Of a stretch of 43,378 nucleotides of DNA, positions 23,280 through 38,420 are shown in pieces (the first letter of the stretch is position 1; each line of letters starts with the position of its first letter). The position numbers and the translations under genes were made by a program. The notes below the pieces were generated by a model. That model searched no databases and was not told the origin of the DNA. It was given only the letters and a program-made list of their open reading frames with translations. Location of the stretch: assembly GCA_015066005.1 (NCBI GenBank), contig SVPF01000022.1, positions 1 to 43,378 of the forward strand, written 5' to 3'. Source of the DNA: Oscillospiraceae bacterium. GTDB lineage: Bacteria; Bacillota; Clostridia; Oscillospirales; Acutalibacteraceae.

Positions 23280-23423
23280 GGCTCCCTCCGAGAGGGAGCT
23301 GTCAACGAAGTTGACTGAAGGAGAGTTGCGATGACTATAATCAAATACCGATTATTGTTAATTTCCGTATACTCCTTCCGTCTTTTTGCTTTGCAAAAAT
23401 CCACCTCCCTCTCGGAGGGAGGC
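23280..23423. repeat. Gene-less inverted-repeat (MITE-like) element A
   Basis: Left arm 23280-23325 and right arm 23372-23423 are imperfect inverted copies. Both begin with a hairpin of the type GGCTCCCTCCGAGAGGGAG, carry a second inner hairpin (GTCAAC..GTTGAC on the left; TTTTTGC..GCAAAAA on the right) and end in purine-rich GAAGGAG. Only 46 bp lie between them, with no gene. The arms match those of element C (37974-38420), so this looks like a deletion derivative. It lies 15 bp from the terminator of DUF559 gene A. Confidence 0.85.
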
Positions 23424-23437
23424 ATATGAAAACAAAA

Positions 23438-23458
23438 ACCCTCCTTAATCAAAGGAGG
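23438..23458 (-). terminator. Terminator overlapping the end of DUF559 gene A
   Basis: Minus strand: CCTCCTT pairs with AAGGAGG, followed by GTTTTTGTTTT. The stop codon of the gene (23445-23447) lies inside the hairpin. Confidence 0.8.
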
Positions 23459-23804
23459 ATTTTACAATCATATCAATATACTCGCAAACACCACGAAAAT
23501 TTGTATTTACTTGATTATTAGAAAATCTTATAACCCTTAAATCAAACTCTTCCAAAATTTCAGTGCGAAATTCATCATTTCTGATTCCATCCTCAGAAAA
23601 ATGCTGTGAACCATCTACTTCAATAACAAGCTTGGCTTTATGACAATAAAAATCAACAATATAATTCCCAATTGACTTTTGCCGTTGAAATCTAATTGGA
23701 TATTTTGCCAAAAAATCATACCATAAATGGTTTTCTTGCGGTGTTGCATTTTTTCTTAATTGTTGTGCTAATGATATATTTTTCTTATTGTATTCGATTG
23801 ACAT
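23445..23804 (-). CDS. DUF559 endonuclease-like protein (copy A)
   Basis: 119 residues of the DUF559 family, related to Vsr/PD-(D/E)XK nucleases. Conserved core: 'LRKNATPQENHLWYDFL' (helical lead), 'RFQRQKSIGNYIVDFYC' with the Asp of strand 2, 'LVIEVDGSQH' with Glu and Asp, then 'RTEILEEFDLRVIRFSNNQV'. Copies B (23902) and C (37971) share nearly all of these positions. Unlike B and C it has no inverted-repeat arm or good ribosome binding site before ATG; instead 2 nt upstream begins a 32-bp copy of the surE 3' end (23807-23838). Family nuclease activity is expected but unproven. Confidence 0.85.
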   Translation of the reverse strand: MSIEYNKKNISLAQQLRKNATPQENHLWYDFLAKYPIRFQRQKSIGNYIVDFYCHKAKLVIEVDGSQHFSEDGIRNDEFRTEILEEFDLRVIRFSNNQVNTNFRGVCEYIDMIVKSSFD

Positions 23805-23806
23805 TT

Positions 23807-23838
23807 TTTAATCTCTTTTATACTTTTCAAAAACTGCC
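23807..23838. repeat. 32-bp direct repeat, copy 1 (surE 3'-end duplicate)
   Basis: Identical over 32 bp to 24327-24358, which is the authentic last ten codons and stop of surE. The two copies bracket the 488-bp stretch holding inverted-repeat element B. Not a gene: the copy has no reading frame of its own and ends just before the ATG of DUF559 gene A. Confidence 0.93.
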
Positions 23839-23843
23839 TTAAA

Positions 23844-24323
23844 GCCTTCTCCGGTGGGAAAAGGTGTCGCTGTAGGTGACGGATGAGGCGTTATTTAACG
23901 ATCATTTTAGATCAAAAAATGTTAATTCCAAATTATTCAATATATCTTGTGCTACACCGGAAAAATTACATTTGATTTCGTTGTTATAATAACGCAAAAC
24001 TTTAATACCTAATTTTGAGAGTTCCCGGTCTCGATGTGCGTCTTTTAACATACCCAAATTTTCAGTATGTTGCGAACCATCCACCTCGATAACAATCTTT
24101 TTCGAAGCAATATAAAAATCCACAATATAATCCCCTATATTGTGCTGGCGGTGAACGGTAACAGGCAATTTCTTTAAAAAGTCATACCACAAGTGTTTTT
24201 CTTCAGGAGTCATATTTTTTCGCAAACTTTTAGCATTATATACCAAACTCTTATTATAGGAAAACATTTTTCACCTCATCCACCAACCATTCGGTTGGTC
24301 CCCCTTCTCCTACTGGAGAAGGC
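23844..24323 (-). mobile_element. Inverted-repeat element B carrying a DUF559 gene
   Basis: 480-bp element. Left arm 23844-23890 starts GCCTTCTCCGGTGGGAAAAG and ends GGATGAGGCG; right arm 24272-24323, read on the minus strand, starts GCCTTCTCCAGTAGGAGAAG and ends GGATGAGGTG. Each arm folds into an outer hairpin (CTTCTCC..GG) and an inner hairpin (e.g. ACCAACC..GGTTGGT). Between them is DUF559 gene B. The right arm places GAGGTG 5 nt before the gene's ATG. A 32-bp direct repeat of host sequence (23807-23838 and 24327-24358) borders the element. No transposase is encoded. Confidence 0.8.
23902..24267 (-). CDS. DUF559 endonuclease-like protein (copy B)
   Basis: 121 residues, paralogue of the copies at 23445 and 37971: 'SLRKNMTPEEKHLWYDFL', 'VHRQHNIGDYIVDFYIASKKIVIEVDGSQH', 'LGIKVLRYYNNEI'. 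Candidate active-site residues are Asp of 'IVDFY' and Glu/Asp of 'IEVDG', as in Vsr-like PD-(D/E)XK nucleases. Start ATG 24267 with GAGGTG supplied by the inverted-repeat arm of element B. It lies 60 bp after surE on the same strand, so it may also be transcribed from the surE operon. Confidence 0.88.
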   Translation of the reverse strand: MFSYNKSLVYNAKSLRKNMTPEEKHLWYDFLKKLPVTVHRQHNIGDYIVDFYIASKKIVIEVDGSQHTENLGMLKDAHRDRELSKLGIKVLRYYNNEIKCNFSGVAQDILNNLELTFFDLK

Positions 24324-24326
24324 ATA

Positions 24327-24358
24327 TTTAATCTCTTTTATACTTTTCAAAAACTGCC
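24327..24358. repeat. 32-bp direct repeat, copy 2 (in surE 3' end)
   Basis: Original copy of the 32-bp repeat; covers the last codons and stop of surE and 1 bp beyond. Partner of 23807-23838. Confidence 0.93.
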
Positions 24359-25047
24359 ATGTCGGTGCGGGTAGCAATAAGAGGTGTAACCGAAATTGTT
24401 TGGTTTAAAATTGCAACGGTGTCACGGTTTAAATCATTGGGGCAAACGTCGGGTACAGGCTCGCCTTCCTGATGGTACATATCTCCTTCGTCATGCACAA
24501 AGCCGTCCGAAAAATAATGCGAGCCCTGACGTGTAATTCTGATATCGCTTACCTTATCGGGAATATTTACGTTATAAATTAAGGTTTCATCAAAAAGGTT
24601 TTGGCTTACAATAAAATCATACGCCATATCAAAATACTGCGCGGCTTCTTTTTGACTGTGTGGGAAGGTTGAAAAGGCAATACCCTTTATACCTAAACGG
24701 GCGGCCTCGAAAACGGCGGCAACGGTACCCGAATAAACAATATCCTGCCCAACGTTTACGCCGTAATTTATGCCCGAAAGCACGAGGTCAAATTTATCCT
24801 GAAGACCTAAAACGCCAAAGCGCACACAGTCAGCAGGGGTCGAGCTCATTGAATAGGCGGTAACACCGTCAATAAATTCCACCCTTTTAATTTCCTGCGG
24901 GTTTACAAAATCGATAGCGTGGCTCATTGCGCTTTGCTCAACCTTAGGGGCAACAACCGTAACCTCGCCCAATTTTTTAGCCCAATCTGCCAAAAGGCGA
25001 ATACCCGGTGCGTTAATGCCGTCGTCATTGGTTATTAAAATTTTCAT
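24328..25047 (-). CDS. surE: 5'/3'-nucleotidase SurE
   Basis: 239 residues. N-terminal metal motif 'MKILITNDDGINAPGIRLLA' (Asp-Asp), then 'PKVEQSAMSHAID', 'SSTPADCVRFG' and 'VLSGINYGVNVGQDIVYSGTV', all SurE hallmarks. It dephosphorylates nucleoside monophosphates and may act on short polyphosphate. Start overlaps the stop of the DHH gene by one base. Last housekeeping gene of the dGTPase-DHH-DHH-surE operon; element B is inserted 4 bp after its stop without altering the protein. Confidence 0.96.
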   Translation of the reverse strand: MKILITNDDGINAPGIRLLADWAKKLGEVTVVAPKVEQSAMSHAIDFVNPQEIKRVEFIDGVTAYSMSSTPADCVRFGVLGLQDKFDLVLSGINYGVNVGQDIVYSGTVAAVFEAARLGIKGIAFSTFPHSQKEAAQYFDMAYDFIVSQNLFDETLIYNVNIPDKVSDIRITRQGSHYFSDGFVHDEGDMYHQEGEPVPDVCPNDLNRDTVAILNQTISVTPLIATRTDMAVFEKYKRD

Positions 25048-26021
25048 TACAGCCAGCCCTCGTTATTTTCTTTATAATTCTTAAGAAGCGTGTCGGCATC
25101 CTTTAAAACCTGCTTCATTTCTTTTTTTGAATATACCGTACCGCCTGCGGCACAAGCGTGACCGCCGCCACGGTACTGTTCGGCCAATTCGCTAACCGTT
25201 ACAAAACGTGAACGGAAGCGAATGCGAATAGCATCATCACCTTCAATAAAAGCAATCCAAATTAAAGAATCGCGAATGGTGTCAAGATAACCTACCGAAG
25301 CGGCGGCATCTTCATTTGAAAGACCAAACCTTTTCTTCATACGCTTAGTTACAAAAATGTATGCTACGCCGTTTTCGGTAAGCTTAATATTATTTTGAAC
25401 ATACGCTTCAAATTTAATGTTTTTAATGTCCTTAAGGTACAAATGCGCATAAAGGGTGTCGGTGTCAATGCCTTGGTTCAGCATCACACCTGCTAATCGC
25501 ATTGTTTCACCGTCAACCTCGCGGTAACGGAAGCGACCCGAATCTGTCACCATTCCTGCATAAATATAGGTTGCGGCTTCGGTATTAATTTTAAGCTCAT
25601 CCTTAAAGGTGTCGTAAAAATCGGCAATCATTTCACAAGCGGAGGAACGGTTTTCCTCAACCCATTCCAAATCACCATAAGATTCAAGCGGAATATGGTG
25701 GTCAATTTTTATAACCTCTTTACACAAAGCAAAATCCTGATTAGAGGCTCGCTTCGCGGTGCCTGTATCAATCACAATGCCAAGAGCGTCCTTATATTCT
25801 TCCCCGCTTAAAAGCTCGTCCTCGGCCCCCAGAAAGCTCATATAATCCGAAAAATCCTTATTTTGAAGCAAAACGGTTTTTTCGGGGAAATTAAGCTTTA
25901 TTAGCGCCTGAAGCCCCTTGGTTGAGCCAACGGCATCACCGTCGGGACGGAAGTGGCGGAAAATTAAAATTTTGTCGTATTCCTTAATTTTATCTAAAAT
26001 TGCCTGCTTTGTTTTTAACAT
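25047..26021 (-). CDS. DHH/DHHA1 phosphoesterase, NrnA-like (copy 2)
   Basis: 324 residues. DHH domain motifs 'IFRHFRPDGDAVGS', 'GIVIDTG' and 'IKIDHHIPLES', and DHHA1 motif 'EQYRGGGHACAAGG'. Relatives of this size (NrnA) degrade 2-5-nt RNA and pAp in the cytoplasm. Start overlaps the previous DHH gene by 7 bp, with AGGAGA upstream. The protein is a clear paralogue of the adjacent copy, sharing layout throughout, yet differing enough to suggest separate substrates. Confidence 0.9.
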   Translation of the reverse strand: MLKTKQAILDKIKEYDKILIFRHFRPDGDAVGSTKGLQALIKLNFPEKTVLLQNKDFSDYMSFLGAEDELLSGEEYKDALGIVIDTGTAKRASNQDFALCKEVIKIDHHIPLESYGDLEWVEENRSSACEMIADFYDTFKDELKINTEAATYIYAGMVTDSGRFRYREVDGETMRLAGVMLNQGIDTDTLYAHLYLKDIKNIKFEAYVQNNIKLTENGVAYIFVTKRMKKRFGLSNEDAAASVGYLDTIRDSLIWIAFIEGDDAIRIRFRSRFVTVSELAEQYRGGGHACAAGGTVYSKKEMKQVLKDADTLLKNYKENNEGWL

Positions 26022-26956
26022 TCAAAATCTCCTAATTCGTTTAAATCGTTAAGCATTTGCATTGCTTCATCACGGTTTTTAAGGGTGGCGCCGCTTGCCT
26101 TTGCGTGACCGCCGCCGCCGTATTTAACGGCAATTGGGTTAATATTATATTTATTTGAGCGAAGCTCAGCCAGAACGCCGTTTTCGGTTTCGGTAAAGTT
26201 TACCCAAACGTTAACCCCTTTAATGTCACCCATTGTGCCAACCATTGCGCGCGAAATTGTAAAGGTGTCGGCTTCATAGCTCTCAGCCTCTTCCTTAGTG
26301 GTATAAATATAAGCCACGTTTTTGTCAGTAAACTGAATTTTCAGCACAAACTGCGCACGAAGGCGAATAAACGAAAAATCGTCCGCATAAAGCTGAGCGT
26401 AGATTTCGTTTGTGTCAAATTCGGCTTTCATAAGGTGGGATGCTAAACGGAAGGTGTTTGCGTTTGTGCTGTCATACCTAAAGCGGCCTGAATCGGTTAC
26501 CATACCTGTGTAAAGCGACTTTGCCGCCAATTTAGAAAGCCTAAGACCACTTTCAATTGCAAATTCGGTCACTAAACCACAACAACTTTCGTAACTTGTG
26601 TCGGTAACCTCAATATCGCAAATTTCTTCACAAAAAATGTGGTGGTCAATTCTAACGGTTTTTTGGGCCTTTTTATAGCGGTCATCACTTATAAGAGCAG
26701 CGGCCGAGGTATCAAGCACGATGGCAAGCGCATTTTCGTAAACGCTGTCATCAATTTCATCCATTACACTGCCTTCCATAAAGCCGTAACGCTTTGAGCC
26801 ATCACCCACGGTATAAACAGTTTTAGTGGGGAAATTTTCTTGAATAATTTCCCTCATACCAATTTGGCTGCCCAAAGCATCGCCATCGGGGTTATTGTGG
26901 CGGTGAATAATTATAGTATCAAATTCTTTAATAGCATCTAAAATTTTTTCAAACAT
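26015..26956 (-). CDS. DHH/DHHA1 phosphoesterase, NrnA-like (copy 1)
   Basis: 313 residues from ATG 26956 (GAGAAAAG upstream); a GTG at 26968, directly after the dGTPase-like stop, is an alternative start that would add four residues. Motifs: 'IIHRHNNPDGDALGSQIG', 'AIVLDTSAAA', 'VRIDHHIFCEE' (the DHH), and 'VKYGGGGHAKASGA' (DHHA1). Expected to hydrolyse short oligoribonucleotides or pAp. Tandem with a second copy just downstream. Confidence 0.9.
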   Translation of the reverse strand: MFEKILDAIKEFDTIIIHRHNNPDGDALGSQIGMREIIQENFPTKTVYTVGDGSKRYGFMEGSVMDEIDDSVYENALAIVLDTSAAALISDDRYKKAQKTVRIDHHIFCEEICDIEVTDTSYESCCGLVTEFAIESGLRLSKLAAKSLYTGMVTDSGRFRYDSTNANTFRLASHLMKAEFDTNEIYAQLYADDFSFIRLRAQFVLKIQFTDKNVAYIYTTKEEAESYEADTFTISRAMVGTMGDIKGVNVWVNFTETENGVLAELRSNKYNINPIAVKYGGGGHAKASGATLKNRDEAMQMLNDLNELGDFEC

Positions 26957-26968
26957 GGCTTTTCTCAC

Positions 26969-28165
26969 TTAATCGTCAAAATATCCCCTGTAAACCACGG
27001 GGTAATCAGCATTCGGGAACATATATTTATGCAGCTCAATAAAATAATCGTCGGTCATACTTGCAATAAAGTCAACAACTATCTGATTAGGCTCGTTCTT
27101 TTCATATGGTGTTTTAGGCGGGTTGCGAAGCGCCTTAACATAATTTATATGCTTGGTGAAAATGGGCGAATAGGTTTTTTGAAGCCTTAAATCCTCCAAA
27201 AGCTGACCGTAAATGTCAGCCATCATAGGCTTTACGGTAACATCAAGCCGTGCATCATTAGCGGCGTGGTTGTAAATTTTTTCATAATTATCCTTTTTAG
27301 ATTCCTTAAGCGCCGCAAAATGCTTTTTATCCATTTTAATATATGGCTTGCCGTAGCTGTTTTCAATGATGTTAACCATTAAATTGTTTATAATTTCAGA
27401 ATTTAACGAGCCAATATCTTCATTATAAAAATCATTAGCGGTAACGGTTTTAGAAATTATGGCATCCTGACGGTCACGGCCGAGGTATGCAATAATATCC
27501 GAAATTTTAACCACCGCGCCTTCAAGGGTTGAAGGCGCTATTTTATTGGCAAAATTCCTATCCTGCGCGCATTTTTCCATAATGTCGTCAAATTCCTCAA
27601 AGCCTGATAATTTCGCAGGATAATATTCCTCAAGCTCAATTTCGCCGTTGTGGGCGGCAATACCGTCAAGGGTTTGAAGGGTAAGGTTGCAGGAATAAAT
27701 TTTATCAAGCACCCGAACAGAATGAATATTATGAAGAAAACGGCGGCCTGTGTGGGCGCGGTATAATTCGTCAAGATATTTTTCGCCCGAATGTGCAAAT
27801 GCAGGGTGGCCAATGTCGTGACCAAGCGCTATGGATTCGATAAGCTCCTGATTCAAATGCAATGCGCCGCCTATGGTACGTGCAATGCGCGAAACAAACT
27901 GCACGTGTAAAAAACGGCGGGTAATGTCGTCATTTTTCCAAAGTGAATACACCTGTGTTTTATCGGCATAACGGCTGTAAAAAGGGCAATGCAAAATTTT
28001 ATCACTGTCACGCACAAAGGGTGTGCGCCAAATGTTAGACTTATCCACCGTGGTATCCCTGCGGTAAGCATCCTTATCATCAATGCCAAACTTTTTAAAG
28101 GTTGACGTTTGCTTTTCATATTCCATTTGTTTTACCAAAGCATCGGTTAACTGTTCCTTGCGCAA
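26969..28165 (-). CDS. HD-domain dGTP triphosphohydrolase-like protein
   Basis: 398 residues from TTG 28165, which has GGGTGGG 7 nt upstream; the in-frame GTG at 28177 lies inside that site. HD metal motif 'GHDIGHPAFAHSGEKYLDEL' with upstream His in 'RFLHVQFVSRIARTIGGALHL', diagnostic of dGTPase/Dgt-like proteins. 'KISDIIAYLGRDRQDA' carries the last Asp of the HD site. It would split dNTPs to the nucleoside and triphosphate, or act on other nucleotides. First gene of a four-gene nucleotide-turnover operon, with a promoter at 28207-28234. Confidence 0.9.
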   Translation of the reverse strand: MRKEQLTDALVKQMEYEKQTSTFKKFGIDDKDAYRRDTTVDKSNIWRTPFVRDSDKILHCPFYSRYADKTQVYSLWKNDDITRRFLHVQFVSRIARTIGGALHLNQELIESIALGHDIGHPAFAHSGEKYLDELYRAHTGRRFLHNIHSVRVLDKIYSCNLTLQTLDGIAAHNGEIELEEYYPAKLSGFEEFDDIMEKCAQDRNFANKIAPSTLEGAVVKISDIIAYLGRDRQDAIISKTVTANDFYNEDIGSLNSEIINNLMVNIIENSYGKPYIKMDKKHFAALKESKKDNYEKIYNHAANDARLDVTVKPMMADIYGQLLEDLRLQKTYSPIFTKHINYVKALRNPPKTPYEKNEPNQIVVDFIASMTDDYFIELHKYMFPNADYPVVYRGYFDD

Positions 28166-28206
28166 GAAAAATCCCACCCTTTTAAATAGTTAGTTTAATC
28201 ATAAAT

Positions 28207-28234
28207 ATTATACCATAAAATACTTTTATTGTAA
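28207..28234 (-). promoter_or_regulatory. Promoter of the dGTPase-surE operon
   Basis: Minus strand: -35 TTACAA (28229-28234), 16-bp spacer, -10 TATAAT (28207-28212), about 42 bp before the start codon. Confidence 0.75.
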
Positions 28235-28257
28235 ATGTAATTATTTTATTGTATAAT
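28229..28257 (+). promoter_or_regulatory. Promoter of the radical SAM gene
   Basis: -35 TTGTAA (28229-28234), 17-bp spacer, -10 TATAAT (28252-28257). Its -35 hexamer occupies exactly the same six base pairs as that of the divergent promoter. Confidence 0.8.
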
Positions 28258-28276
28258 ACTAAAGCGAGGTGAAAAA

Positions 28277-29107
28277 ATGAAACGGTTTAAAAAGGCTTAT
28301 ATTGAAATTTCAAATATTTGTAACCTTAGCTGCAGCTTTTGTCCCGGCACGAAAAGACTGCCGAAAATAATGACAACTAAAGATTTTACAGCGGTTATTA
28401 AAAAGGTTGCCCCTTTTACCGATTATGTTTATTTTCACCTTTTGGGTGAACCGCTTTTACACCCAAATTTAGAAGAATTTTTAAAAATTGCCGAAAATTA
28501 CGGCTTAAAGGTAATTATTACCACTAACGGCACACTTTTAAAAGAAAAAAGTGAAGTTTTGCTTAATTCAAATTCGCATTATAAAACGGTTATTTCACTT
28601 CACAGCTTTGAAGCAAACCAAGGCCAAAATTTTAGTGATTATATTAACGACTGCCTTGATTATGCAAAGGCGGCCGAGGGCAAAAAAATTGTGGTGCTAA
28701 GGCTTTGGAACAGCGGCGGCGAGGATAAGCTTAACAGTGAAATTTTAGAAAAAATTGAAGACCGCTTCCCTTCCCCATGGCGTGATACCCGCGGCGGCAA
28801 GCAAATTGGCGATAACCTTTACATTCAGTTTGGCGATAAATTCGACTGGCCCGATATTGACAGCCCCACCGAAAGTGAAACCGCCTTTTGCTACGGACTT
28901 CGTGACCAAATTGGTGTTTTATGCGATGGCACGGTTGTGCCCTGCTGTTTAGATAATAACGGCCAAATAAACCTTGGAAACATTTTTGAAAGCAATTTGG
29001 GTGAAATTATAAATTCACCCCGCGCATTAAACATTTATAACGGCTTTTCAAACCGAAAAGCCTGTGAAGAGCTTTGCAAAAAATGCACCTTTGCAAGAAA
29101 ATTTTAA
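28277..29107 (+). CDS. Radical SAM/SPASM-type protein
   Basis: 276 residues. Cluster motif 'CNLSCSFCPG' (Cys15, Cys19, Cys22; CxxxCxxC) at the start, 'FHLLGEPLLHPNLEEFL' and 'ITTNGTLL' as in the SAM-binding barrel, then a Cys-rich SPASM-like tail: 'AFCYGLRDQIGVLCDGTVVPCC' and 'CEELCKKC'. Such proteins use an iron-sulfur cluster and S-adenosylmethionine for radical chemistry, often on peptides or as maturases. No peptide precursor gene is next to it, so the substrate is unknown. AGCGAGGTG before ATG. Confidence 0.88.
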   Translation: MKRFKKAYIEISNICNLSCSFCPGTKRLPKIMTTKDFTAVIKKVAPFTDYVYFHLLGEPLLHPNLEEFLKIAENYGLKVIITTNGTLLKEKSEVLLNSNSHYKTVISLHSFEANQGQNFSDYINDCLDYAKAAEGKKIVVLRLWNSGGEDKLNSEILEKIEDRFPSPWRDTRGGKQIGDNLYIQFGDKFDWPDIDSPTESETAFCYGLRDQIGVLCDGTVVPCCLDNNGQINLGNIFESNLGEIINSPRALNIYNGFSNRKACEELCKKCTFARKF

Positions 29108-29137
29108 AACGGATAGCCCATGCGGGTTATCCGTTTT
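29106..29137. terminator. Bidirectional terminator
   Basis: Arms AAAACGGATA (29106-29115) and TATCCGTTTT (29128-29137) with inner CCC/GGG pairing, lying between the converging radical SAM and FAD oxidoreductase genes. Confidence 0.92.
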
Positions 29138-30425
29138 TCTTTCTATTCGCAGGGCCGTCTAAAATATTGCCACCATTGTCAAATCTTGACCCGTGACAGC
29201 TGCAGTCCCAAGAATGCTCTGCTTTGTTCCACTTAAGCTTGCAACCCAAATGCGTACAACGTTTTTTAGAAAAACCCACAAGACCGTTTACCGCTTCAGC
29301 GCTATTAACCAAAAGCTGTTTTCTAAAAATTGAACGTGAGGGCGAAAACACTTCACAATATTTATTTTCACACCCCAAAACCATATCACAAAGCATTTCG
29401 GCCGCCACTATTGACGAGGTCATACCCCATTTGTTAAAACCTGTTGCAACCAGTAAATTGTTTTTAAATCGCGAATAATAGCCAATGTAGGGTATATCAT
29501 CAAGGGTTTTGCAGTCCTGTGTGGCCCAATAAATTTTTTCCTGTGCGTCAGGGATTTTTTCATTCACAAAAGCACGAAGCCTGTTAAAACCGCACTCACC
29601 CTTGCCTGTTCTGTGTCCGTAACCGCCCAACAGCAATAACCCGTTATAATTTCGAAAGGATAACCTATTATCACATTCATCAACATACATTCCTTTATAA
29701 TCGGGAGCATTTTCAAGCGCCAAAACATAGCTTCGGCTTTGATACATTTTTAAAAAATATAACCCATATTTATCAATAAACGGAAAATGGGTTGTAACAA
29801 TTATTTTTTTAGCCCTTACACTGCCGTTTTCACAAATTGCGGTACTATTTTCAATTTTTAAAACACGACTGTTTTCATAAACGTTAAGCCCCTTGCTTAT
29901 TGCGCTTAAAAACATTATTGGGTTAAACTGCGCTTGGTTTTTAAACTCTACTGCACCAACCGTTTTAAGCGGCAAGGGTAAATCCTTTACAAAATTGCTT
30001 CCAAAGCCCAAAGAATCTAACGCAATAAACTCTTTTTCAAGCTTTTCTGAATTATTGAGCGAATAAACAAACGAACTGCTTTTTTCAAAATTACAGTCAA
30101 ATTCACGGCTTAAGGCTTCAAAACGGCTAATTGCGTTTTGGTTGGCTTCAAGGTAAAGCTGTGTTTTTTCTTTACCAAAGCGTTTAATCATTTCGGCAAA
30201 TATAAGCCCATGCTGTGAGGTGATTTTTGCCGTAGTGTTCATTGTTGTAGCATTTGCAATTTTATTAGCTTCCAAAAGGATATAATTTACACCCTTTTGA
30301 TGTAAAAAATAAGCAGTCAAAATGCCGCACATTCCACCGCCGATTATTAAAACGTCAGTATTGCGACTGCCTTTTAAAGCTTCATAATGCTGAAAATCGG
30401 CGCTTTCCTGCCAAAGTGATTTCAT
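29127..30425 (-). CDS. FAD-dependent oxidoreductase with C-terminal Rieske domain
   Basis: 432 residues. N-terminal dinucleotide motif 'DVLIIGGGMCGILTAYFL' and DAO-type fold; near the end 'TGFNKWGMTSSIVAAEML' completes FAD binding. The C-terminal Rieske [2Fe-2S] site is 'CTHLGC' plus 'CSCHGSRF' (Cys-X-His and Cys-X2-His). Such fusions are usual in Bacillus and Clostridia (YhfW-like); physiological substrate unknown. The protein ends only about 16 residues after the last His ('ILDGPANRKKNG'), with the stop inside the terminator hairpin, shorter than relatives I know of, so the tail may be trimmed. Confidence 0.9.
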   Translation of the reverse strand: MKSLWQESADFQHYEALKGSRNTDVLIIGGGMCGILTAYFLHQKGVNYILLEANKIANATTMNTTAKITSQHGLIFAEMIKRFGKEKTQLYLEANQNAISRFEALSREFDCNFEKSSSFVYSLNNSEKLEKEFIALDSLGFGSNFVKDLPLPLKTVGAVEFKNQAQFNPIMFLSAISKGLNVYENSRVLKIENSTAICENGSVRAKKIIVTTHFPFIDKYGLYFLKMYQSRSYVLALENAPDYKGMYVDECDNRLSFRNYNGLLLLGGYGHRTGKGECGFNRLRAFVNEKIPDAQEKIYWATQDCKTLDDIPYIGYYSRFKNNLLVATGFNKWGMTSSIVAAEMLCDMVLGCENKYCEVFSPSRSIFRKQLLVNSAEAVNGLVGFSKKRCTHLGCKLKWNKAEHSWDCSCHGSRFDNGGNILDGPANRKKNG

Positions 30426-31323: not shown

Positions 31324-31751
31324 AGGCTTTTTACCATTTTAATGTGGGGTATTCCCGCTTCAATAAATTCCTCCCCAACGGCAATAAAACCAAGCTTTTC
31401 ATAAAAACCTACAGCCGTTTTTTGCGAATTTAAAACAATGCTTTTCACACCGTTTTGTTTGAAATACGAAACGGCATTGTTCATAAGGGAAGCGCCAAGC
31501 CCTTTGTTATGCTCAACCGAAAGCACACGGCCAATATGTATAACTTCGCTATTCTCTTCCAAAAAAGCGCGAAGATATGCCAAAACCTCACCATTTTCTT
31601 CTAAGAAAAGGTGCTGCGACCTATAATCGATATTATCCATATCAAGATACCAGATTTTTTGTTCAAACATAAAAACCTTGGCACGTGCTTTTAAGATTTC
31701 ATAAACCTCACAGCCTGAAAGCTCGCTAAAGCTTTTTGCAACAAATTTCAT
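31320..31751 (-). CDS. GNAT acetyltransferase, ElaA-like
   Basis: 143 residues. 'ILKARAKVFMFEQKIWYLDMDNID' is the ElaA subgroup start; 'IGRVLSVEHNKGLGASLMNNAV' is the acetyl-CoA pyrophosphate loop; 'GFYEKLGFIAVGEEFIEAGIPHIKM' is the C-terminal ElaA signature. Acceptor substrate unknown. Overlaps the exonuclease start by 4 nt and follows the HAD gene by 3 nt. Confidence 0.9.
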   Translation of the reverse strand: MKFVAKSFSELSGCEVYEILKARAKVFMFEQKIWYLDMDNIDYRSQHLFLEENGEVLAYLRAFLEENSEVIHIGRVLSVEHNKGLGASLMNNAVSYFKQNGVKSIVLNSQKTAVGFYEKLGFIAVGEEFIEAGIPHIKMVKSL

Positions 31752-31754
31752 AGC

Positions 31755-32393: not shown

Positions 32394-32402
32394 AATTTCT
32401 CC

Positions 32403-32699
32403 TTAATTTTCGCAATAATCTATACAGGAACGTGATTCGGTAAAGGGGCGTACAAAATTGTCGGCCACAAAAACGTGCTTTTCGTGTGTAGCGTAATTTT
32501 TAAGCGCCGCTTCATCTGTAAAAACGGAATAAAGCATAACATCCACATTAGAACTTTCAAGCTTTTCGGTTTGCACCTTAATTTCTAAAAGACCGTCAAT
32601 CTGACCGTAAAGACCTTCAAGCTTTTCCTTCATTTGTTTTTTTATTTCATCATTGTTAAATTCGGCCTTTAATTTCCACAAAATGATATGCTTTACCAT
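32403..32699 (-). CDS. Dabb (stress-responsive alpha/beta barrel) domain protein
   Basis: 98 residues from ATG 32699, with AAAGGA upstream; further upstream starts lack a site. 'MVKHIILWKLKAEFNNDEIKKQM' and 'DVMLYSVFTDEAALKNYATHEKH' are hallmarks of the Dabb dimeric ferredoxin-like fold. Members range from plant stress proteins to polyketide cyclases; role here unknown. First gene of the operon Dabb-HAD-GNAT-exonuclease. Confidence 0.88.
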   Translation of the reverse strand: MVKHIILWKLKAEFNNDEIKKQMKEKLEGLYGQIDGLLEIKVQTEKLESSNVDVMLYSVFTDEAALKNYATHEKHVFVADNFVRPFTESRSCIDYCEN

Positions 32700-32728
32700 A
32701 AAACCAATTCCTTTCACATAACAAAAGT

Positions 32729-32757
32729 ATCTTATCATATTTTGCCAATAAATTCAA
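32729..32757 (-). promoter_or_regulatory. Promoter of the Dabb-HAD-GNAT-exonuclease operon
   Basis: Minus strand: -35 TTGAAT (32752-32757), 17-bp spacer, -10 TAAGAT (32729-32734), about 30 bp before the first start codon. Confidence 0.8.
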
Positions 32758-32774
32758 CAAAATAAGCCCTAAAA

Positions 32775-32813
32775 GCAAAAATAATACGGCAAGAAAAACC
32801 TTACCGTATTATT
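32775..32813 (-). terminator. Intrinsic terminator downstream of the HAD-IIA gene
   Basis: Hairpin with arms AATAATACGG (32780-32789) and CCGTATTATT (32804-32813) and inner AAG/CTT; on the minus strand followed by TTTTTG. It would end transcripts from 33051-33851. Confidence 0.8.
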
Positions 32814-32862
32814 ATAATTGATTTCAAATTATAGTTTATCGCTTAGTTAAATTGGCGGCACA

Positions 32863-32937
32863 TCGTAGGGACAATTCACGAATTGTCCGTAAATTACAGC
32901 TATGTACAGGCGGGCGATTCGTGAATCGCCCCTACGA
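32863..32937. repeat. 75-bp nested palindromic (MITE-like) repeat
   Basis: Two 27-bp arms, 32863-32889 and 32911-32937, are inverted copies with four differences. Each arm is itself a palindrome: GGACAATTC-AC-GAATTGTCC on the left and GGGCGATTC-GT-GAATCGCCC on the right. It belongs to the 'GTAGGGGCGATTC' palindromes common in many bacterial genomes. It lies in a 351-bp gap (32700-33050) that otherwise holds one promoter, one terminator, and after 32940 a degenerate repeat-like tract with GTCGCGAAGCGAC; no gene seen there. Confidence 0.85.
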
Positions 32938-33050
32938 ATATACAATTAAATTAATAAAATCAACAATTTTAATCCGTCGCGAAGCGACACCGAACCTCTT
33001 CACTATTACTTCTTACTTATTACCTCGCGTAAGCGATAAACCCCAATTTA

Positions 33051-33851
33051 TCACTCTTTAATCATTGGTATCATAAGACCTGCATTTTTAAGCACAAAAT
33101 CGGGCTTGTCTTCCGATTTTTCCAGCACCTCATAAGTGGTTTCACCGCTCATAACCAAAACGGTTACGGTTCCTGCATTTATACCGCTTTTAATATCGGT
33201 ATAAATACGGTCGCCTATAACAGCGGTTTGTTCCTTGGAATAGCCTGTCATAGCCATTGCAAGTTCGGGCATCAACGCTTCGGGCTTGCCAATAAACACG
33301 GGGCGCTTGCCTGTCGCATTAAAAATCATATCGCAAAAGCTGCCGCAGTCGGGTACAAAGCCAAATTCGGTGGGGCAAACATAATCAATATTTGTTGCAA
33401 CATAAGGCATATCGGGATTAACCGTTAAAAGATACGAAACATCCCACAGCTTTTTAAAGGTAAGCTCGGTATCGTTTCCCATAACAATGCAGTTAACCTC
33501 ATCGATATTTTCGCTAACCTTAAAGCCCTCACTTATAAATTCATCCTTAAGCGACTGGGTACCGCAAACGTAAAGTGTGGCATTTTTATGGTGATTTTTA
33601 AGGTAATACGCGGTTGCCTGTGAGGAGGTTATAAAATCATCCTTATCGGCTTTAATACCAAGCTTTTCAAGCTTTTCAATGTAGGCATTAACACTTTTTG
33701 AGGAATTATTTGTCATAAACAAATATCTTGAACCCGTTTCTCTAATGGTATTCAGAAGCTCAATTGTAAAATCATAAAGAATATTGCCAAGGTAAAGTGT
33801 ACCGTCCATATCAAATAAAAACAGCTTTACATTTTTTAGTGATTTATCCAT
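33051..33851 (-). CDS. HAD-IIA phosphatase, NagD-like
   Basis: 266 residues from ATG 33851 with AAAAGGAA upstream. 'VKLFLFDMDGTLYLGN' (nucleophile Asp), 'YLFMTNNSSKS' (motif II), 'FIGKPEALMPELAMA' and 'AVIGDRIYTDIKSGINAGT' (motifs III-IV), with the C2-type cap between, place it in the NagD/4-nitrophenylphosphatase group. It dephosphorylates small phospho-compounds such as sugar phosphates or nucleotides in the cytoplasm. It lies 65 nt after malic enzyme. Confidence 0.93.
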   Translation of the reverse strand: MDKSLKNVKLFLFDMDGTLYLGNILYDFTIELLNTIRETGSRYLFMTNNSSKSVNAYIEKLEKLGIKADKDDFITSSQATAYYLKNHHKNATLYVCGTQSLKDEFISEGFKVSENIDEVNCIVMGNDTELTFKKLWDVSYLLTVNPDMPYVATNIDYVCPTEFGFVPDCGSFCDMIFNATGKRPVFIGKPEALMPELAMAMTGYSKEQTAVIGDRIYTDIKSGINAGTVTVLVMSGETTYEVLEKSEDKPDFVLKNAGLMIPMIKE

Positions 33852-33916
33852 AACAAATTCCTTTTCTAAAAATTCACAACGCGATTTTACCATAAGCGTG
33901 CTGTGGAAAATTTAAC

Positions 33917-35089
33917 TTAAATTCTTGCAACTCCTGTTTCTTTGGCAACCTTAGCAACAGCTTCGGCTACAACCTGTGCTACACGCTTATCTAAAGCCGA
34001 TGCTATAATATTTTCTTCGGTAATTTCATCATCGGGGATGAGAGAAGCCAAAGCGTAAGAGGTGGCAACCTTCATTTCCTCATTAATGCAGGTTGCACGG
34101 CAGTCAAGCGCACCACGGAAAATGCCGGGGAATGCAAGCACGTTGTTAATTTGGTTCGGGAAGTCGGAACGGCCTGTACCTACAACCCTTGCGCCTGCCT
34201 TTTTTGCAATATCGGGCATAATTTCGGGGGTGGGGTTAGCCATTGGGAACATAATGGCATCCTGCGCCATAGACTTAACCATTTCCTCATTAACAAGATT
34301 GGGAGCTGATACACCGATAAATACATCAGCGCCGCAAAGAGCATCGGCAAGGGTGCCTTTTTTATGCTCAAGGTTAGTAACCTTAGAAATTTCTTCCTGA
34401 GCAACGTTGTTGTTTTCATCACCCTCGCAAATAATGCCAAAGCGGTCGCAGAAGGTAAGGTTTTTCACACCCATATTCATAAGGTGCTTACCAATGGCAA
34501 TACCCGCCGAGCCCGCACCGTTAATAACAACCTTTACTTCGCCAATTTCCTTTTTAACAAGCTTTAAGGCATTAATTAAAGCGGCGGCAACAACAATTGC
34601 GGTGCCGTGCTGGTCGTCGTGAAAAATCGGAATATCGCAAATTTCCTTTAGCTTTCTTTCAATTTCAAAGCAACGGGGTGCTGAAATATCCTCAAGGTTA
34701 ATACCGCCGAAGGAGCCTGAAAGTAAGTAAATTGTGCGAACAATTTCGTCAACATCCTTTGACCTAATGCAAAGGGGAAATGCGTCAACGTCAGCAAATG
34801 CCTTAAAGAGTGCGCACTTGCCTTCCATAACAGGCATACCTGCTTCGGGACCGATGTCACCAAGGCCCAGAATTGCGGTACCGTCGGTAATAACGGCAAC
34901 CAAATTTGAACGGCGGGTAAGCTCGTAAGACTTATTTATATCCTTATTGATTTCAAGGCAAGGCTCGGCTACACCGGGGGTATATGCTAAGGAAAGGTCC
35001 TCTCGTGTGTTTATGGGCGCGCGGGAAATAACCTCAATTTTACCCTGCCATTCGTAATGCTTTTTTAAAGATTCCTGTCTGATATCCAT
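33917..35089 (-). CDS. NAD(P)-dependent malic enzyme
   Basis: 390 residues, the short bacterial type without the phosphotransacetylase-like domain. 'SLAYTPGVAEPCLEI', 'VAVITDGTAILGLGDIGPEAGMPVMEGK', 'IFHDDQHGTAIV' and the dinucleotide site 'VVINGAGSAGIAIGKHL' are diagnostic. It oxidatively decarboxylates malate to pyruvate and CO2. It lies 119 nt after the Ldh2-type dehydrogenase on the same strand, with no clear promoter between, so the pair may be co-transcribed and link oxaloacetate, malate and pyruvate. Confidence 0.95.
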   Translation of the reverse strand: MDIRQESLKKHYEWQGKIEVISRAPINTREDLSLAYTPGVAEPCLEINKDINKSYELTRRSNLVAVITDGTAILGLGDIGPEAGMPVMEGKCALFKAFADVDAFPLCIRSKDVDEIVRTIYLLSGSFGGINLEDISAPRCFEIERKLKEICDIPIFHDDQHGTAIVVAAALINALKLVKKEIGEVKVVINGAGSAGIAIGKHLMNMGVKNLTFCDRFGIICEGDENNNVAQEEISKVTNLEHKKGTLADALCGADVFIGVSAPNLVNEEMVKSMAQDAIMFPMANPTPEIMPDIAKKAGARVVGTGRSDFPNQINNVLAFPGIFRGALDCRATCINEEMKVATSYALASLIPDDEITEENIIASALDKRVAQVVAEAVAKVAKETGVARI

Positions 35090-35208
35090 TAAACGTCATT
35101 CCTTCCTATACTAAAACTCAACCAGAAAATCATTCATATCATTGTTTTAAGCGAGCGGAGCTGTACAAAGGTACTGCTATGATCGCAAAAACGACGATAT
35201 GGGTGATT

Positions 35209-36321
35209 TTATGCCTCCCAAGGAAACTTGTACTGAGTGAGACCTAACTCGTCACGAATTTCTATAATTTCCTTCTGAACAGATTCGTTAATAGGCACAC
35301 CGCTTTCACGCGCAATGCCGATTTCATATTCCTTTTCACCCGCGGTATAAATGCGTTCGGCACCGGGGGCCTTCTTGGAAGCACGCATACTGCGGCAAAT
35401 GTCACCTGCTTTATGACGGGCAACATCTTCACCCATAAAGTGATTAGTGTCAATTGCAATAAACCAGTGACCCAACTGATAAGGGCGGATATTACCGTTT
35501 TCATCCTTACCGTCAAGCGCCTTACCGTAAGCGCCATCCTGCAAAATGGATGAGAAAAATTCAACAGCTAAAGCAAAGCCGTAGCCCTTATAGCCTGCAA
35601 GGTCTTCACCTATACCGCCAAGGGTTGTAAGGGCAGCTGTGCCGCCGCGAATCTTTTTAAGAGCAACGCCTGCATCACCCTCAACAGCGTTACCTTCAAG
35701 GTCAATAATGGTGCCGGGGTGAACCTCTTCACCAATTCTTTCATAATATTCTACCTTGCCGTTTTGAGTAATAGAGGTAGCGCAGTCAAAGTTAAAATCA
35801 AATGCTTCATCGGTAGGAACACCAATGGTAAATGGGTTGGTACCGAACATACCCTCAACACCGTGGGTTGGCGCAACCGAGGGGCGTGCGTTTGTACCTG
35901 TCATACCGATACAGCCTGCCTTTGTGGCCATAGTGGTGTAATAACCTGCAATACCGTAGTGGCAAGAATTGCGAACAACAACCATACCCATACCGTACTT
36001 TTTGGCCTTTTCAATAGCCATGCTCATAGCCTTGTGACCAATAACCTGACCCATACCGTGATGGCCGTCAATAACAGCGGTGGTTTCGGTTTCTTTAATA
36101 ATTTCCATTTGGGTAACAGCCTGCTGAATGCCTGCCTTAATTCTGTCAAGATAAACAGGCTTAAAGCGGTTTACACCGTGTGATTCAATACCGCGCTTGT
36201 CAGATTCCAAAAGTACATCAGCACAGATTTCAGCATCTGCACGGGGGATTCCGTAACCCACGAAAGCGTCAATTACGAAATCGGTTATTGTTTTCCAGTC
36301 AACTATGTTTGTTTTTGCCAT
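35209..36321 (-). CDS. Malate/L-lactate/ureidoglycolate dehydrogenase, Ldh2 family
   Basis: 370 residues from ATG 36321 with GGAGG upstream. 'ESDKRGIESHGVNRF', 'VIDGHHGMGQVIGHKAM', 'VVVRNSCHYGIAGYY' and 'MFGTNPFTIGVPT' are hallmarks of this non-Rossmann NAD(P) dehydrogenase family (His in 'ESHG' and 'NSCHYG'). Members reduce oxaloacetate, pyruvate or related 2-keto acids; adjacency to malic enzyme favours malate. A promoter at 36405-36432 and a terminator hairpin (36350-36389) both lie before the start codon, so a leader-attenuation mechanism is possible. Confidence 0.9.
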   Translation of the reverse strand: MAKTNIVDWKTITDFVIDAFVGYGIPRADAEICADVLLESDKRGIESHGVNRFKPVYLDRIKAGIQQAVTQMEIIKETETTAVIDGHHGMGQVIGHKAMSMAIEKAKKYGMGMVVVRNSCHYGIAGYYTTMATKAGCIGMTGTNARPSVAPTHGVEGMFGTNPFTIGVPTDEAFDFNFDCATSITQNGKVEYYERIGEEVHPGTIIDLEGNAVEGDAGVALKKIRGGTAALTTLGGIGEDLAGYKGYGFALAVEFFSSILQDGAYGKALDGKDENGNIRPYQLGHWFIAIDTNHFMGEDVARHKAGDICRSMRASKKAPGAERIYTAGEKEYEIGIARESGVPINESVQKEIIEIRDELGLTQYKFPWEA

Positions 36322-36349
36322 TTTGCATTCCTCCGAAAAAATTTTTAAC

Positions 36350-36389
36350 AAAAAAAGAGTGCACTAATCCCCAAGAATTAATGCACTCT
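36350..36389 (-). terminator. Terminator hairpin between glpP-like gene and Ldh2-type gene
   Basis: Minus strand: AGAGTGCATTAAT pairs with ATTAGTGCACTCT (36356-36368 with 36377-36389; one mismatch), followed by seven T. It is downstream of the GlpP-like gene but also inside the predicted leader of the dehydrogenase gene, so it may be an ordinary terminator or an attenuator. Confidence 0.9.
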
Positions 36390-36404
36390 AAATCTCTAAA
36401 AAAT

Positions 36405-36432
36405 ATTATAACATATTTTCGGGGTTTTGCAA
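36405..36432 (-). promoter_or_regulatory. Probable promoter of the Ldh2-type dehydrogenase gene
   Basis: Minus strand: -35 TTGCAA (36427-36432), 16-bp spacer, -10 TATAAT (36405-36410) preceded by TGT (extended -10). Transcription would begin near 36398, about 9 nt before the terminator hairpin. Confidence 0.7.
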
Positions 36433-36457
36433 TACTTTTTTTACGTATTATTAAAAA

Positions 36458-37018
36458 TCAAATATACCAAAGCTCTTTTTTACCTGTAGAAATTGCTAAC
36501 GCACCGCTTGATAAAGCGGCTGTAACCTCAGCCTTGGTTTCTAAAAGACCCCCTGCAATTACAGGTATTTCGGAGCTTGCAAACTTTTTAATAACCTTTT
36601 CAATAACGCCGGGCATAATTTCAACAAAGTCGGGTCTGGTGCTGTCAATCATTTCTGCAATGCTTTCAAGGCCTTGACTGTCCAGCGCAAAATAACGCTG
36701 AACGGTAAGCATACCAATTTCCTTAGCAGCTTTAATTAAAGGCGCGCGGGTGGAAATTATACCGTCTGCACCGCATTTGGCCAAAAATTCAACACCGCAT
36801 TTATCCTTGCCAATGCCCTTCATTAAATCAATATGCACCAAAACCGCCTTGCCGTGCTCATGCGCGAGGGCAATTTTTTCGTTAACTGTTATAACGTCAC
36901 CCTCCAATAAGAAGATAATATCCACAGGGGCGTTCAACGCATCACTAAACTGTTTTTCGTGCACAGCCGAAATTATTGGGCAGGCTTCAAGTCTTTCTAT
37001 CGCCGATAATGAATCCAT
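36458..37018 (-). CDS. glpP: GlpP-type glycerol-3-phosphate-responsive antiterminator
   Basis: 186 residues, the full length of the family. 'CPIISAVHEKQFSDALNAP', 'IIFLLEGDVITVNEKIALAHEHGKAVLVHIDLMKGIG', 'GADGIISTRAPLIKAAKE', 'VQRYFALDSQGL', 'VEIMPGVIEKVI' and 'PVIAGGLLETKAEV' are GlpP hallmarks (TIM-barrel fold). In Bacillus the protein with glycerol-3-phosphate binds leader mRNA and prevents termination before glp genes. No glycerol gene is present in this window; the nearest leader terminator is the one before the adjacent dehydrogenase. RNA-binding role here is inferred from the family. Confidence 0.9.
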   Translation of the reverse strand: MDSLSAIERLEACPIISAVHEKQFSDALNAPVDIIFLLEGDVITVNEKIALAHEHGKAVLVHIDLMKGIGKDKCGVEFLAKCGADGIISTRAPLIKAAKEIGMLTVQRYFALDSQGLESIAEMIDSTRPDFVEIMPGVIEKVIKKFASSEIPVIAGGLLETKAEVTAALSSGALAISTGKKELWYI

Positions 37019-37057
37019 AAAAACATCACATCCGTTGTAAGTTTAACATATATGCCG

Positions 37058-37951
37058 CTACCGTGTCAAGAAATCCAACACCTTACCATAGCATTCCTCA
37101 GCGGTTTCAAACACCAAATCGGCCTCGGCCTTATCAAAGGTTTTTAGCTTCTTCTTACTTGGTAGACCCCAAATGTCAAGAAGCCTTGGGCCTATCCAAA
37201 AACCGTATTCCGTTTTTTCAAAAATCCCCCGCAAAATACAAAGCGCGGCTTTCTTTGGCTTCATAAAAATAATTTTCATTGGGTGTTTAATTATTGCAAA
37301 AATCACCTTAGGGTAATGGGCGGTAATGTTTGTAAATGTAATGCCGGGGTGAACTACCGAAAGGCTGACACCCTTTTCATTTTCAAAAAGCCTATAAAAC
37401 GACAGCATTAAATGGCGTTTTGCATTACCGTAGGCCTTGCTTGCGGCTTTAACGGTGCGAAAATCAATATTTTTGGGGTTGGTTTTAGAATAGTTGTGCG
37501 CAATACTGCCAACCGCTACCACCCTGCCGCCTTTTTGCTCTAGATACGGTAAAAGCGTTTTGGTAATATAGTACGGTGATAAAAAGTTTATCATAAAAAC
37601 GTTATCAAAACCGCAGTCGGTAATATAACGGGGTATGCTGTAAGCACCCGCATTATGTATTAAATAATCAGGGCAATTTTTAATTAAAGCATCTGTTGCG
37701 GCTTTAACCGATTTTATATCACTTAAATCACAAGGTATAAATTCGGCTTTAATATTGGGGAATTCTGTCTTTAGTTTTAAAATTTGTTCGTCAGTTTTTT
37801 CTTTACTTCGGTTAAGCAAAACAAGGTCAGCGCCAAGGGCAGCTAAATGCCTGCAAAGCCACACACCAATACCGCCCGTGCTGCCCGAAACGGCAACAGT
37901 TTTACCCTTTAAGCCTTCTGTATTCTTTAAAAACCATTTTTTACAATTCAC
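37058..37951 (-). CDS. Short-chain dehydrogenase/reductase
   Basis: 297 residues from GTG 37951 with AGGAG upstream. Cofactor motif 'VAVSGSTGGIG' (residues 19-29), 'LIHNAGAYSIP' (NAG), Ser in 'VAVGSIAHNYS', and catalytic 'AYGNAKRH' (YxxxK). The C-terminal third resembles the retinol-dehydrogenase-like SDR group. NAD(P)-dependent oxidoreductase of unknown substrate. Inverted-repeat element C lies right before it (37974-38420), so its native promoter may have been displaced. Confidence 0.9.
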   Translation of the reverse strand: MNCKKWFLKNTEGLKGKTVAVSGSTGGIGVWLCRHLAALGADLVLLNRSKEKTDEQILKLKTEFPNIKAEFIPCDLSDIKSVKAATDALIKNCPDYLIHNAGAYSIPRYITDCGFDNVFMINFLSPYYITKTLLPYLEQKGGRVVAVGSIAHNYSKTNPKNIDFRTVKAASKAYGNAKRHLMLSFYRLFENEKGVSLSVVHPGITFTNITAHYPKVIFAIIKHPMKIIFMKPKKAALCILRGIFEKTEYGFWIGPRLLDIWGLPSKKKLKTFDKAEADLVFETAEECYGKVLDFLTR

Positions 37952-37970
37952 GTTATTCTCCTAATTCACC

Positions 37971-38366
37971 CTAGGCTCCCTCTGACGAGGGAGCTGTCAG
38001 CAACGCTGACTGAGGGAGAGATTCTTTAACAGCCAAATCTATAGATTCACATACACCGCTAAAATTACGATCTATATCTAAATTACAAATTCTCAATACT
38101 GATAAATTCATACCCTTTAACTCTTTTGTACGGTATTCATCTTTTTTTATTTGTTCGTCGGTATAATGACCCCCACCATCAATTTCAATAACCAATTTTG
38201 CTTTTGCACAATAAAAATCAACTATATAATTTCCAATCGTTTTTTGCCTTTGAAATCTTATTGGATAGTTTCTCAAAAAATTATACCAAAGTTTTCGTTC
38301 CCAAGGAGTCATATTTTTTCTCAAAGCCTTTGCTAAAGGGATATTTGATTTATTATATTCTTTCAT
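37971..38366 (-). CDS. DUF559 endonuclease-like protein (copy C), TIR-encoded C-terminus
   Basis: 131 residues. Core as in copies A and B: 'LRKNMTPWERKLWYNFL', 'RFQRQKTIGNYIVDFYCAKAKLVIEIDGGGH', 'RTKELKGMNLSVLRICN'. ATG 38366 is preceded by GGAGGGAGAGAAA, which is the inner end of the right inverted-repeat arm. The last 16 residues ('SLPQSALLTAPSSEGA') are read from the left arm and the TAG stop (37971-37973) lies just outside it. So the repeat provides both the ribosome binding site and the tail. Vsr-like PD-(D/E)XK nuclease activity is likely from family. Confidence 0.88.
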   Translation of the reverse strand: MKEYNKSNIPLAKALRKNMTPWERKLWYNFLRNYPIRFQRQKTIGNYIVDFYCAKAKLVIEIDGGGHYTDEQIKKDEYRTKELKGMNLSVLRICNLDIDRNFSGVCESIDLAVKESLPQSALLTAPSSEGA

Positions 38367-38420
38367 TTTCTCTCCCTCCGTCAAAACTTTGTTTTGACAC
38401 CTCCCTCGTCAGAGGGAGGC
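37974..38420 (-). mobile_element. Inverted-repeat element C carrying a DUF559 gene
   Basis: 447 bp. Left arm 37974-38021 and right arm 38369-38420 (read on minus) are imperfect inverted copies: both start G(G/C)CTCCCTCTGACGAGGGAG, then an inner hairpin (TGTCAGC..GCTGAC left; TGTCAAAA..TTTTGAC right) and end GAGGGAGAGA. The DUF559 gene fills the middle. No transposase; no clear target-site duplication found by eye. Arms are the same family as gene-less element A at 23280-23423. Confidence 0.85.

Follow-up and report, generated by a model that had tools for sequence, protein, structure and literature searches.

The stretch of DNA analyzed here, referred to throughout as the window, comprises positions 1 to 43,378 of contig SVPF01000022.1 from an Oscillospiraceae bacterium (assembly GCA_015066005.1), and it carries three genes of the DUF559 nuclease family in the company of inverted palindromic arms. 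All three genes lie on the minus strand: gene A at 23445-23804 (119 amino acids; PF04480 E 6.8e-29, 100.4 bits), gene B at 23902-24267 (121 amino acids; E 2.7e-28, 98.4 bits) and the open reading frame (ORF) of gene C at 37971-38384 (E 7.4e-27, 93.8 bits). Each passes the curated PF04480 cut-off of 20.6 bits and is thus a member of the family by profile match. An earlier note on this DNA had placed such genes at 23445, 23902 and 37971, and both the ORFs and the PF04480 matches bear this out. The same note had credited the three with almost the same protein core, which overstates the resemblance: identity to protein A is 47% for B and 60% for C, and protein C is 50% identical to protein B over 109 residues. 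The genome to which the window belongs (1.97 Mb in 53 contigs) holds a fourth DUF559 gene, D, on contig 52, whose product is 64% identical to protein A. ORF C probably starts with the ATG at position 38366, which follows the purine tail of the 5' arm, and its final residues are encoded by the 3' arm, as seen in the tail of the protein alignment. In a relative that lacks B (locus L037), by our reading, gene A would start at an ATG a few bases past the stop codon of the upstream ORF.

Every arm consists of an outer hairpin, an inner hairpin and a purine tail, the latter being GGAGGGA except in the B type, where it is GGATGAGG. Arms were scored with a covariance model, R1, built from arms beside DUF559 genes. 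Doublet A, a gene-free inverted repeat of 146 bp at 23279-23424, has its left arm at 23279-23320 (plus strand; 35.1 bits) and its right arm at 23375-23424 (minus strand; 36.2 bits). Element B (482 bp, 23843-24324) is bounded by arms of the CTTCYCC class at 23843-23888 (plus; 33.7 bits) and 24274-24324 (minus; 45.7 bits), and element C (449 bp, 37973-38421), likewise an inverted repeat, by arms of the TGAYGA class at 37973-38015 (plus; 54.1 bits) and 38375-38421 (minus; 58.5 bits). These are the six strong full-length matches of the window (E about 6e-11 or better), which additionally contains three matches confined to the outer hairpin and a weak full-length match at 17558 (E 0.15). When the six window arms and the two at D were folded against 200 shuffles each, seven of the eight beat every shuffle (z -4.2 to -5.8), while the left arm of B did not (z -0.9). 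The earlier note's palindromic arms are therefore real, as is its observation that B's arms share the architecture of the arms of A and C but not their sequence. On inspection of the sequence, the purine tail is positioned where a ribosome binding site is expected, so the role that the note had given it fits as far as position goes.

Conservation of the fold extends beyond the window. An alignment of 72 arms has 99.3% of cells paired in the outer helix and 68.8% in the inner helix, percentages that should be read in light of the alignment having been fitted to the structure. Two-sided changes occur at five of the eight outer-helix pairs and one-sided changes at none, and when the partner is shifted by one base, 55-58% of both helices together stays paired, down from 86%. 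By these measures, the arm structure is under selection. Other palindromic insertions are found inside outer hairpins, often right after GGG (L037:1246-1326; the 3' arms of L016, L038 and L039), and in our reading the arms look as if they were insertion targets themselves.

Two layouts of gene and arms recur. In type I the gene lies within the arms; in type II there is no 5' arm and a complete doublet stands at the 3' end, as for gene A of the window and at L092, L093, L094 and L096. Fifteen of the 19 genes labeled type II fall in one clade, which also contains five unlabeled genes. Gene A lies outside its doublet, with 20 bp between the doublet and the 3' end of the gene, and the notion that it is carried between arms, as the earlier note had it, was thus abandoned.

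Elements B and C are insertion-polymorphic. Element B is flanked by a 32-bp direct repeat, the right copy of which (24327-24358) is the original end of the ORF at 24328-25047 and the left copy (23807-23838) a duplicate of that 3' end; the orthologous site in one relative (genome G044, locus L037) is without element B, and the 32-bp sequence is single there. Element C is missing from the orthologous sites of four relatives (G044, G045, G066 and G017, the last read at a contig end 36 bases past the site). Another relative (G037) carries an element at this very place, and in a further one (G029) an element precedes the same gene by about 75 bp. Given that an element is shared by the window's own genome (G000) and G037 and is not found in these relatives, repeated gain or loss at the C site is possible. 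The insertion of C is accompanied by about 19 and 18 additional bases beside the arms without a clean duplication, and across 37 elements no consistent rule of target duplication was found; the repeat beside B is 32 bp long. With C inserted, the downstream gene gains, by our reading, an AGGAGA-like ribosome binding site (37930-37975) that is absent from the empty sites. Insertions are mostly co-directional with the upstream neighbor (45 against 16 that are not; p 0.0003).

Compact units of this kind are common in the genus, where 62 DUF559 matches are distributed over 37 of 70 species genomes; the locus set omits one of these (G065:C172), and 59 distinct genes scoring 100 bits or more were kept. 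Many copies reside in units of about 440-450 bp with matching arms. Pairwise comparison of 11 TGAYGA copies gave 40 pairs outside one group, and in 38 of these similarity stopped no more than 16 bases beyond both arms. In the remaining 15 pairs, from a group of six copies, the shared outer flanks measure about 160-290 and 40-80 bp; this group is probably nested in a larger repeat. In the window's own genome, R1 returned 117 matches among the 150 of 436 candidates that were scored. Pairing used 98 of these, leaving out one match at E 0.95 and 18 that covered just the outer hairpin, and resolved them into 43 inverted pairs and 12 singles. Forty of the 43 pairs span 121-188 bp, too short for the DUF559 gene; the three long pairs found (447, 449 and 482 bp) correspond exactly to the DUF559 elements D, C and B. 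All arm counts should be read as minima, as the number of scored candidates was limited per genome (150 of 436 here, at most 89 per genome in another scan and at most 20 in the 300-genome scan described below). Four contigs of this genome (C1, C24, C33 and C37) end within arms, near base 1-120; the repeats thus probably break the assembly, and true copy numbers would be higher. Element counts, conversely, are slightly inflated, since some loci from the scans of named genomes are contigs of genus loci (e.g., L147 and L016) and were merged only if the compared stretch was identical. Arm-bounded stretches also occur in chains, at 2310-4055 of L112 (a Schwartzia metagenome-assembled genome), with near-identical spacers of about 18 bp, and at 2200-2942 of L113, with spacers of 5-7 bp; one stretch of these chains has what we read as an hsdS-like frame.

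The association between DUF559 and arms exceeds chance by a wide measure. Self-palindromic inverted arms flank 39 of 84 DUF559 genes, compared with 1 of 987 control windows of the same size from the same loci, a count that covers the 84 of 91 genes with enough flank, at loci drawn from scans of named genomes and from viral contigs (eight viral). In Flavonifractor plautii ATCC 29863, for example, the gene has an R1 arm to either side. Among 300 genomes of the family (135 genera), arms are found in 74 of the 80 with a strong DUF559 match and in 47 of the 220 without one (odds ratio 45, p 2e-30); counted by genus, the figures are 45 of 50 and 20 of 85 (odds ratio 29, p 1e-14). A genome-wide absence of any such link, which the earlier note had proposed as its refutation, is therefore not what is seen. 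Because R1 derives from arms beside DUF559, two arms per gene were subtracted, after which at least three arms are left in 57 of 80 genomes against 23 of 220. The Y1 transposases (PF01797), searched in the same 300 genomes, served as a control enzyme. Genomes with at least three arms make up 18 of the 25 with DUF559 and without Y1, 48 of the 55 with both, 9 of the 99 with Y1 only and 15 of the 121 with neither; within DUF559-positive and DUF559-negative genomes taken separately, the effect of Y1 is not significant (p 0.12 and 0.52). Y1/RAYT transposases were accordingly rejected as the main driver, given that they bring no significant gain once DUF559 is known. The window's own genome has five Y1 genes above the family cut-off, none with an R1 arm within about 1.5 kb at E 0.05. 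It also has weak Y1_Tnp matches at L183 (contig C5), L184 (contig C4) and L182 (contig C14). The ORFs at L183 and L184 (169 and 170 amino acids) appear RAYT-like by their motifs, and neither has an R1 arm closer than about 1.5 kb.

Gene and arms have also diverged together. Among 139 DUF559 genes, the left and right outer-hairpin classes are equal in all 66 elements in which both arms could be classified; for 38 of the 139, neither side was assignable by the patterns used, and several of these visibly have other variants. The exact loop is equal in 22 of 31 genus elements, compared with a permuted mean of 8.6 and a maximum of 15 in 5000 permutations. The inner parts behave otherwise, the two arms of one element being 0.63 alike and same-side arms of different elements 0.67-0.71. 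The earlier note had asked for a protein tree with arm classes mapped onto it, and congruence is what such a tree yields: the five type I classes require five changes (minimum four), and all ten labels require 29 (minimum nine), compared with 85.9 in shuffles. This was a quick tree of 135 of the 139 genes (those under 95 amino acids were dropped), built on 118 columns and with many open forks. The window's own genome has its four copies spread over four clades, with a separate arm class for each and B on a long branch. Genes A and C lie in different DUF559 clades and so do not represent one carrier family, as had been supposed. Repeated capture of one gene by different palindromes, the first of two readings that the note had offered, was rejected on this tree, where classes fall almost perfectly on DUF559 clades. 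Its second reading, that arms and gene co-evolve, holds in the form of co-divergence of a single unit: since arm classes track the protein tree, the data support gene and arms descending together. The first observation is thus partly confirmed and its interpretation partly supported.

Physical linkage alone would produce such congruence, and a class match in trans is consequently the test that reaches further. Across the 70 genus genomes, extra TGAYGA hairpins accompany genes of the TGAYGA clade (median 5 against 0, p 1.3e-5), also among the 37 DUF559-positive genomes (p 0.001). For the TTGTGTAAA class the corresponding values are p 0.0098 and p 0.024. Reversed hairpin patterns, run as a control, had no match in any of the 70 genomes.

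The nuclease itself is conserved. E23, D50, E61, D63 and H67 are invariant in 50 sequences, and median dN/dS values (nonsynonymous to synonymous rates) of 0.115, 0.06 and 0.077 indicate that it is under purifying selection. By sequence it is related to the solved structures 3hrl (Endonuclease-Like Protein, E 6.5e-22) and, more remotely, 3r3p (Mobile intron protein, E 0.0013); weak matches to toxin B subunits (E 0.03 to 0.34) were taken as chance. We take 3r3p to belong with the EDxHD (Vsr-like) homing endonucleases. According to PMC1189080, a YcjD profile detects Vsr. DUF559 is accordingly treated here as a putative nuclease of the PD-(D/E)XK or Vsr-like kind.

The pairing of DUF559 with arms recurs outside Clostridia, in Alphaproteobacteria, Deinococcus and one cyanobacterium. 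The set consisted of 15 loci, namely 14 hand-picked for diversity from 37 PLSDB records (four of the PLSDB loci had been inspected before the pick) and the chromosomal ycjD of E. coli. Arms are present at 7 of the 15, compared with 2 of 239 control windows: Sphingomonas, Sphingobium, Qipengyuania, Sinorhizobium, two Deinococcus and Pseudanabaena. No arm pair satisfying the same definition was found at the Synechocystis, N. gonorrhoeae, E. coli ycjD, Picosynechococcus, Photobacterium, second Sphingomonas and two Azospirillum loci, one of the latter having a 24-nt inverted repeat that is insufficiently self-palindromic; nor was a matching pair found at a gut phage locus (L231) outside the 15. 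Some DUF559 genes are situated within operons, between transhydrogenase genes or between paaD and paaZ. Spread by plasmids was considered and set aside, as the 37 matching PLSDB records are all under 60% identity. In E. coli, ycjD lies between sapF and fabI, and at least 80% of this stretch is present in 3362 of 5426 genomes. It was dropped as a clean presence/absence site, since the two ycjD-less strains examined have an efflux operon after sapF and hence offer no empty site. Part of the sapF-ycjD-fabI stretch matches several places per chromosome (median 4; L233, L237).

Gene and arms, then, move as a unit, are linked genome-wide and have diverged together. The explanation that we somewhat favor is a REPIN/RAYT-like system in which a Vsr-like DUF559 nuclease replaces the Y1 transposase, recognizing hairpins and driving their copying. 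B and C would be copies of a compact mobile element of about 440-480 bp, in which a DUF559 gene sits between two inverted arms and the purine tail on the 5' side may act as the ribosome binding site of that gene; two-arm doublets without a gene, of about 120-190 bp, would be its non-autonomous form. We infer that the nuclease recognizes the outer hairpin by its stem and loop class and nicks or cuts there, and that this cutting would cause the element to be copied into new sites, and likewise, in trans, any doublets whose hairpins fit. DUF559 would thereby play the role proposed for RAYT/TnpA-REP at REPINs, by way of an unrelated nuclease.

Several known systems resemble the element in part. 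With REPIN/RAYT, or the REPtron (PMC3116915; PMC8266576), the likeness extends to inverted doublets of short palindromes (43 pairs in the window's own genome), a gene adjoining the palindromes, distinct gene copies in one genome that each have their own palindrome class, and a single-strand hairpin architecture. The elements here differ in having a DUF559 (probably Vsr-like) nuclease rather than a Y1 HUH transposase, two hairpins per arm and, in type I, the gene inside the doublet. By inspection of the aligned arms, no GTAG-type tetranucleotide was seen beside the hairpins. With the EDxHD homing endonucleases and 3r3p the elements share a remote sequence relation (E 0.0013) and a small nuclease accompanying mobile DNA, but they occupy many non-allelic sites and have palindromic ends. 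No intron or intein was found around DUF559, the intron search being an Rfam scan of the window, whose sole match at the gathering score was one tRNA. Like the miniature inverted-repeat transposable elements (MITEs) of insertion sequences they are short, have inverted ends and include gene-free beside gene-bearing copies; unlike them, they have no transposase and no consistent target duplication, and their ends are themselves hairpins. Repetitive extragenic palindromic (REP) sequences tagged with CGTC are stated in PMC3733652 to have no dedicated transposase, and the palindromes described there, in inverted dimers and in several phyla, resemble those reported here. In our reading, the inner hairpin of several arms, viewed from inside, has a CGTC-like tag and a CCA-like tail. 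As partners of DUF559, dRS3 and CGTC REPs are unsupported, none being found beside it at four loci (Neisseria, E. coli, Azospirillum and Sinorhizobium). The open-access literature in PubMed Central yielded no paper tying DUF559 to both inverted repeats and mobility, which is consistent with the earlier note's suggestion of an undescribed family.

Several observations weigh against a nuclease that moves the arms. Once two arms per gene are subtracted, the link within the genus is modest (median 7 against 1, p 0.023). Of the 300 genomes, 16 have five or more arms and no strong DUF559, and 6 of the 80 genomes with a strong DUF559 lack any arm match. The derivation of R1 biases toward linkage. Y1 alone is linked to arms, with odds ratios of 1.9 for any arm and 2.6 for five or more. 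In the trans test, the TTGCCTAAA class has no link (p 0.37 in the 70 genomes, 0.78 in the DUF559-positive ones). The strongest cross-class link joins TTGTGTAAA genes to TGAYGA hairpins (p 0.0015 and 0.026), and TGAYGA genes are linked to TTGCCTAAA hairpins in the 70 genomes (p 0.0047) and not in the DUF559-positive ones (p 0.33). Class specificity in trans is therefore partial. Finally, the 21 aligned doublets (of 40) in the window's own genome have one or both ends inside a larger MITE-like repeat (e.g., L063-L068, L074-L082) with termini like AAATTGGGGTTTATC and GATAAACTATAATTT, and the copy number of doublets is consequently no proof of the nuclease's work.

It is along these lines that the most serious rival may be drawn, namely that the arms are REP- or MITE-type repeats moved by another transposase, and that DUF559 was captured once and is carried along as a passenger. 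The separate termini of the MITE-like repeat, the outer flank shared by six DUF559 elements, the 47 of 220 genomes with arms and no strong DUF559, the RAYT-like genes in the window's own genome and the imperfect class specificity in trans would all be at home in such a scenario. It is harder to reconcile with the five Y1 genes that have no arm nearby, with the failure of Y1 to add anything significant once DUF559 is known, with DUF559 being the only content of the long arm pairs found, with purifying selection on the nuclease, and with the recurrence of the pairing in other phyla with other stem sequences. We consider it unlikely, albeit deserving of attention. A second rival, which we regard as improbable, holds that DUF559 is a homing-type gene, spreading through repair after its product cleaves particular sites in the chromosome, and that the arms act solely as RNA modules (ribosome binding site, terminator, stop codon) by which insertion into an operon does no harm. 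The profile match to 3r3p, the bias toward co-directional insertion, the genes found inside operons and the placement of the purine tail as a ribosome binding site are in keeping with this, but the elements occupy many unrelated sites rather than one allelic site, gene-free doublets with the same hairpins are numerous, and the matching of classes at both ends is left unexplained. That DUF559 is a stable host or defense nuclease, beside which arms gather by chance or as regulatory elements, is very improbable: some type II copies have what we read as a promoter-like upstream region and the sapF-ycjD-fabI stretch is widespread in E. coli, but presence in the genus is patchy (37 of 70 species genomes), empty sites exist for B and C, and arms are found in 1 of 987 control windows.

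Elsewhere in the window, a 91-nt direct repeat, 81% identical, lies at 21961-22498 within the large ORF at 19619-23188.

The proposed REPIN/RAYT-like system points to a kind of mobile DNA that relies on a repair-type nuclease instead of the usual transposase. A broader proposal, which we put forward tentatively and without quite leaning toward it, is that DUF559/YcjD proteins are the mobility enzymes of a separate, pan-bacterial REP-like class, repair-type nucleases that would recognize hairpins and spread both their own genes and doublets lacking a gene, independent of the DDE, HUH, serine and tyrosine transposases, in which hairpin class and nuclease co-evolve. Some families of bacterial palindromic repeats have no recognized mobility enzyme. 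If the proposal is true, such repeats would gain a candidate enzyme and their movement would become testable, and a function would be suggested for a large family of unknown function that has a member, ycjD, in E. coli.

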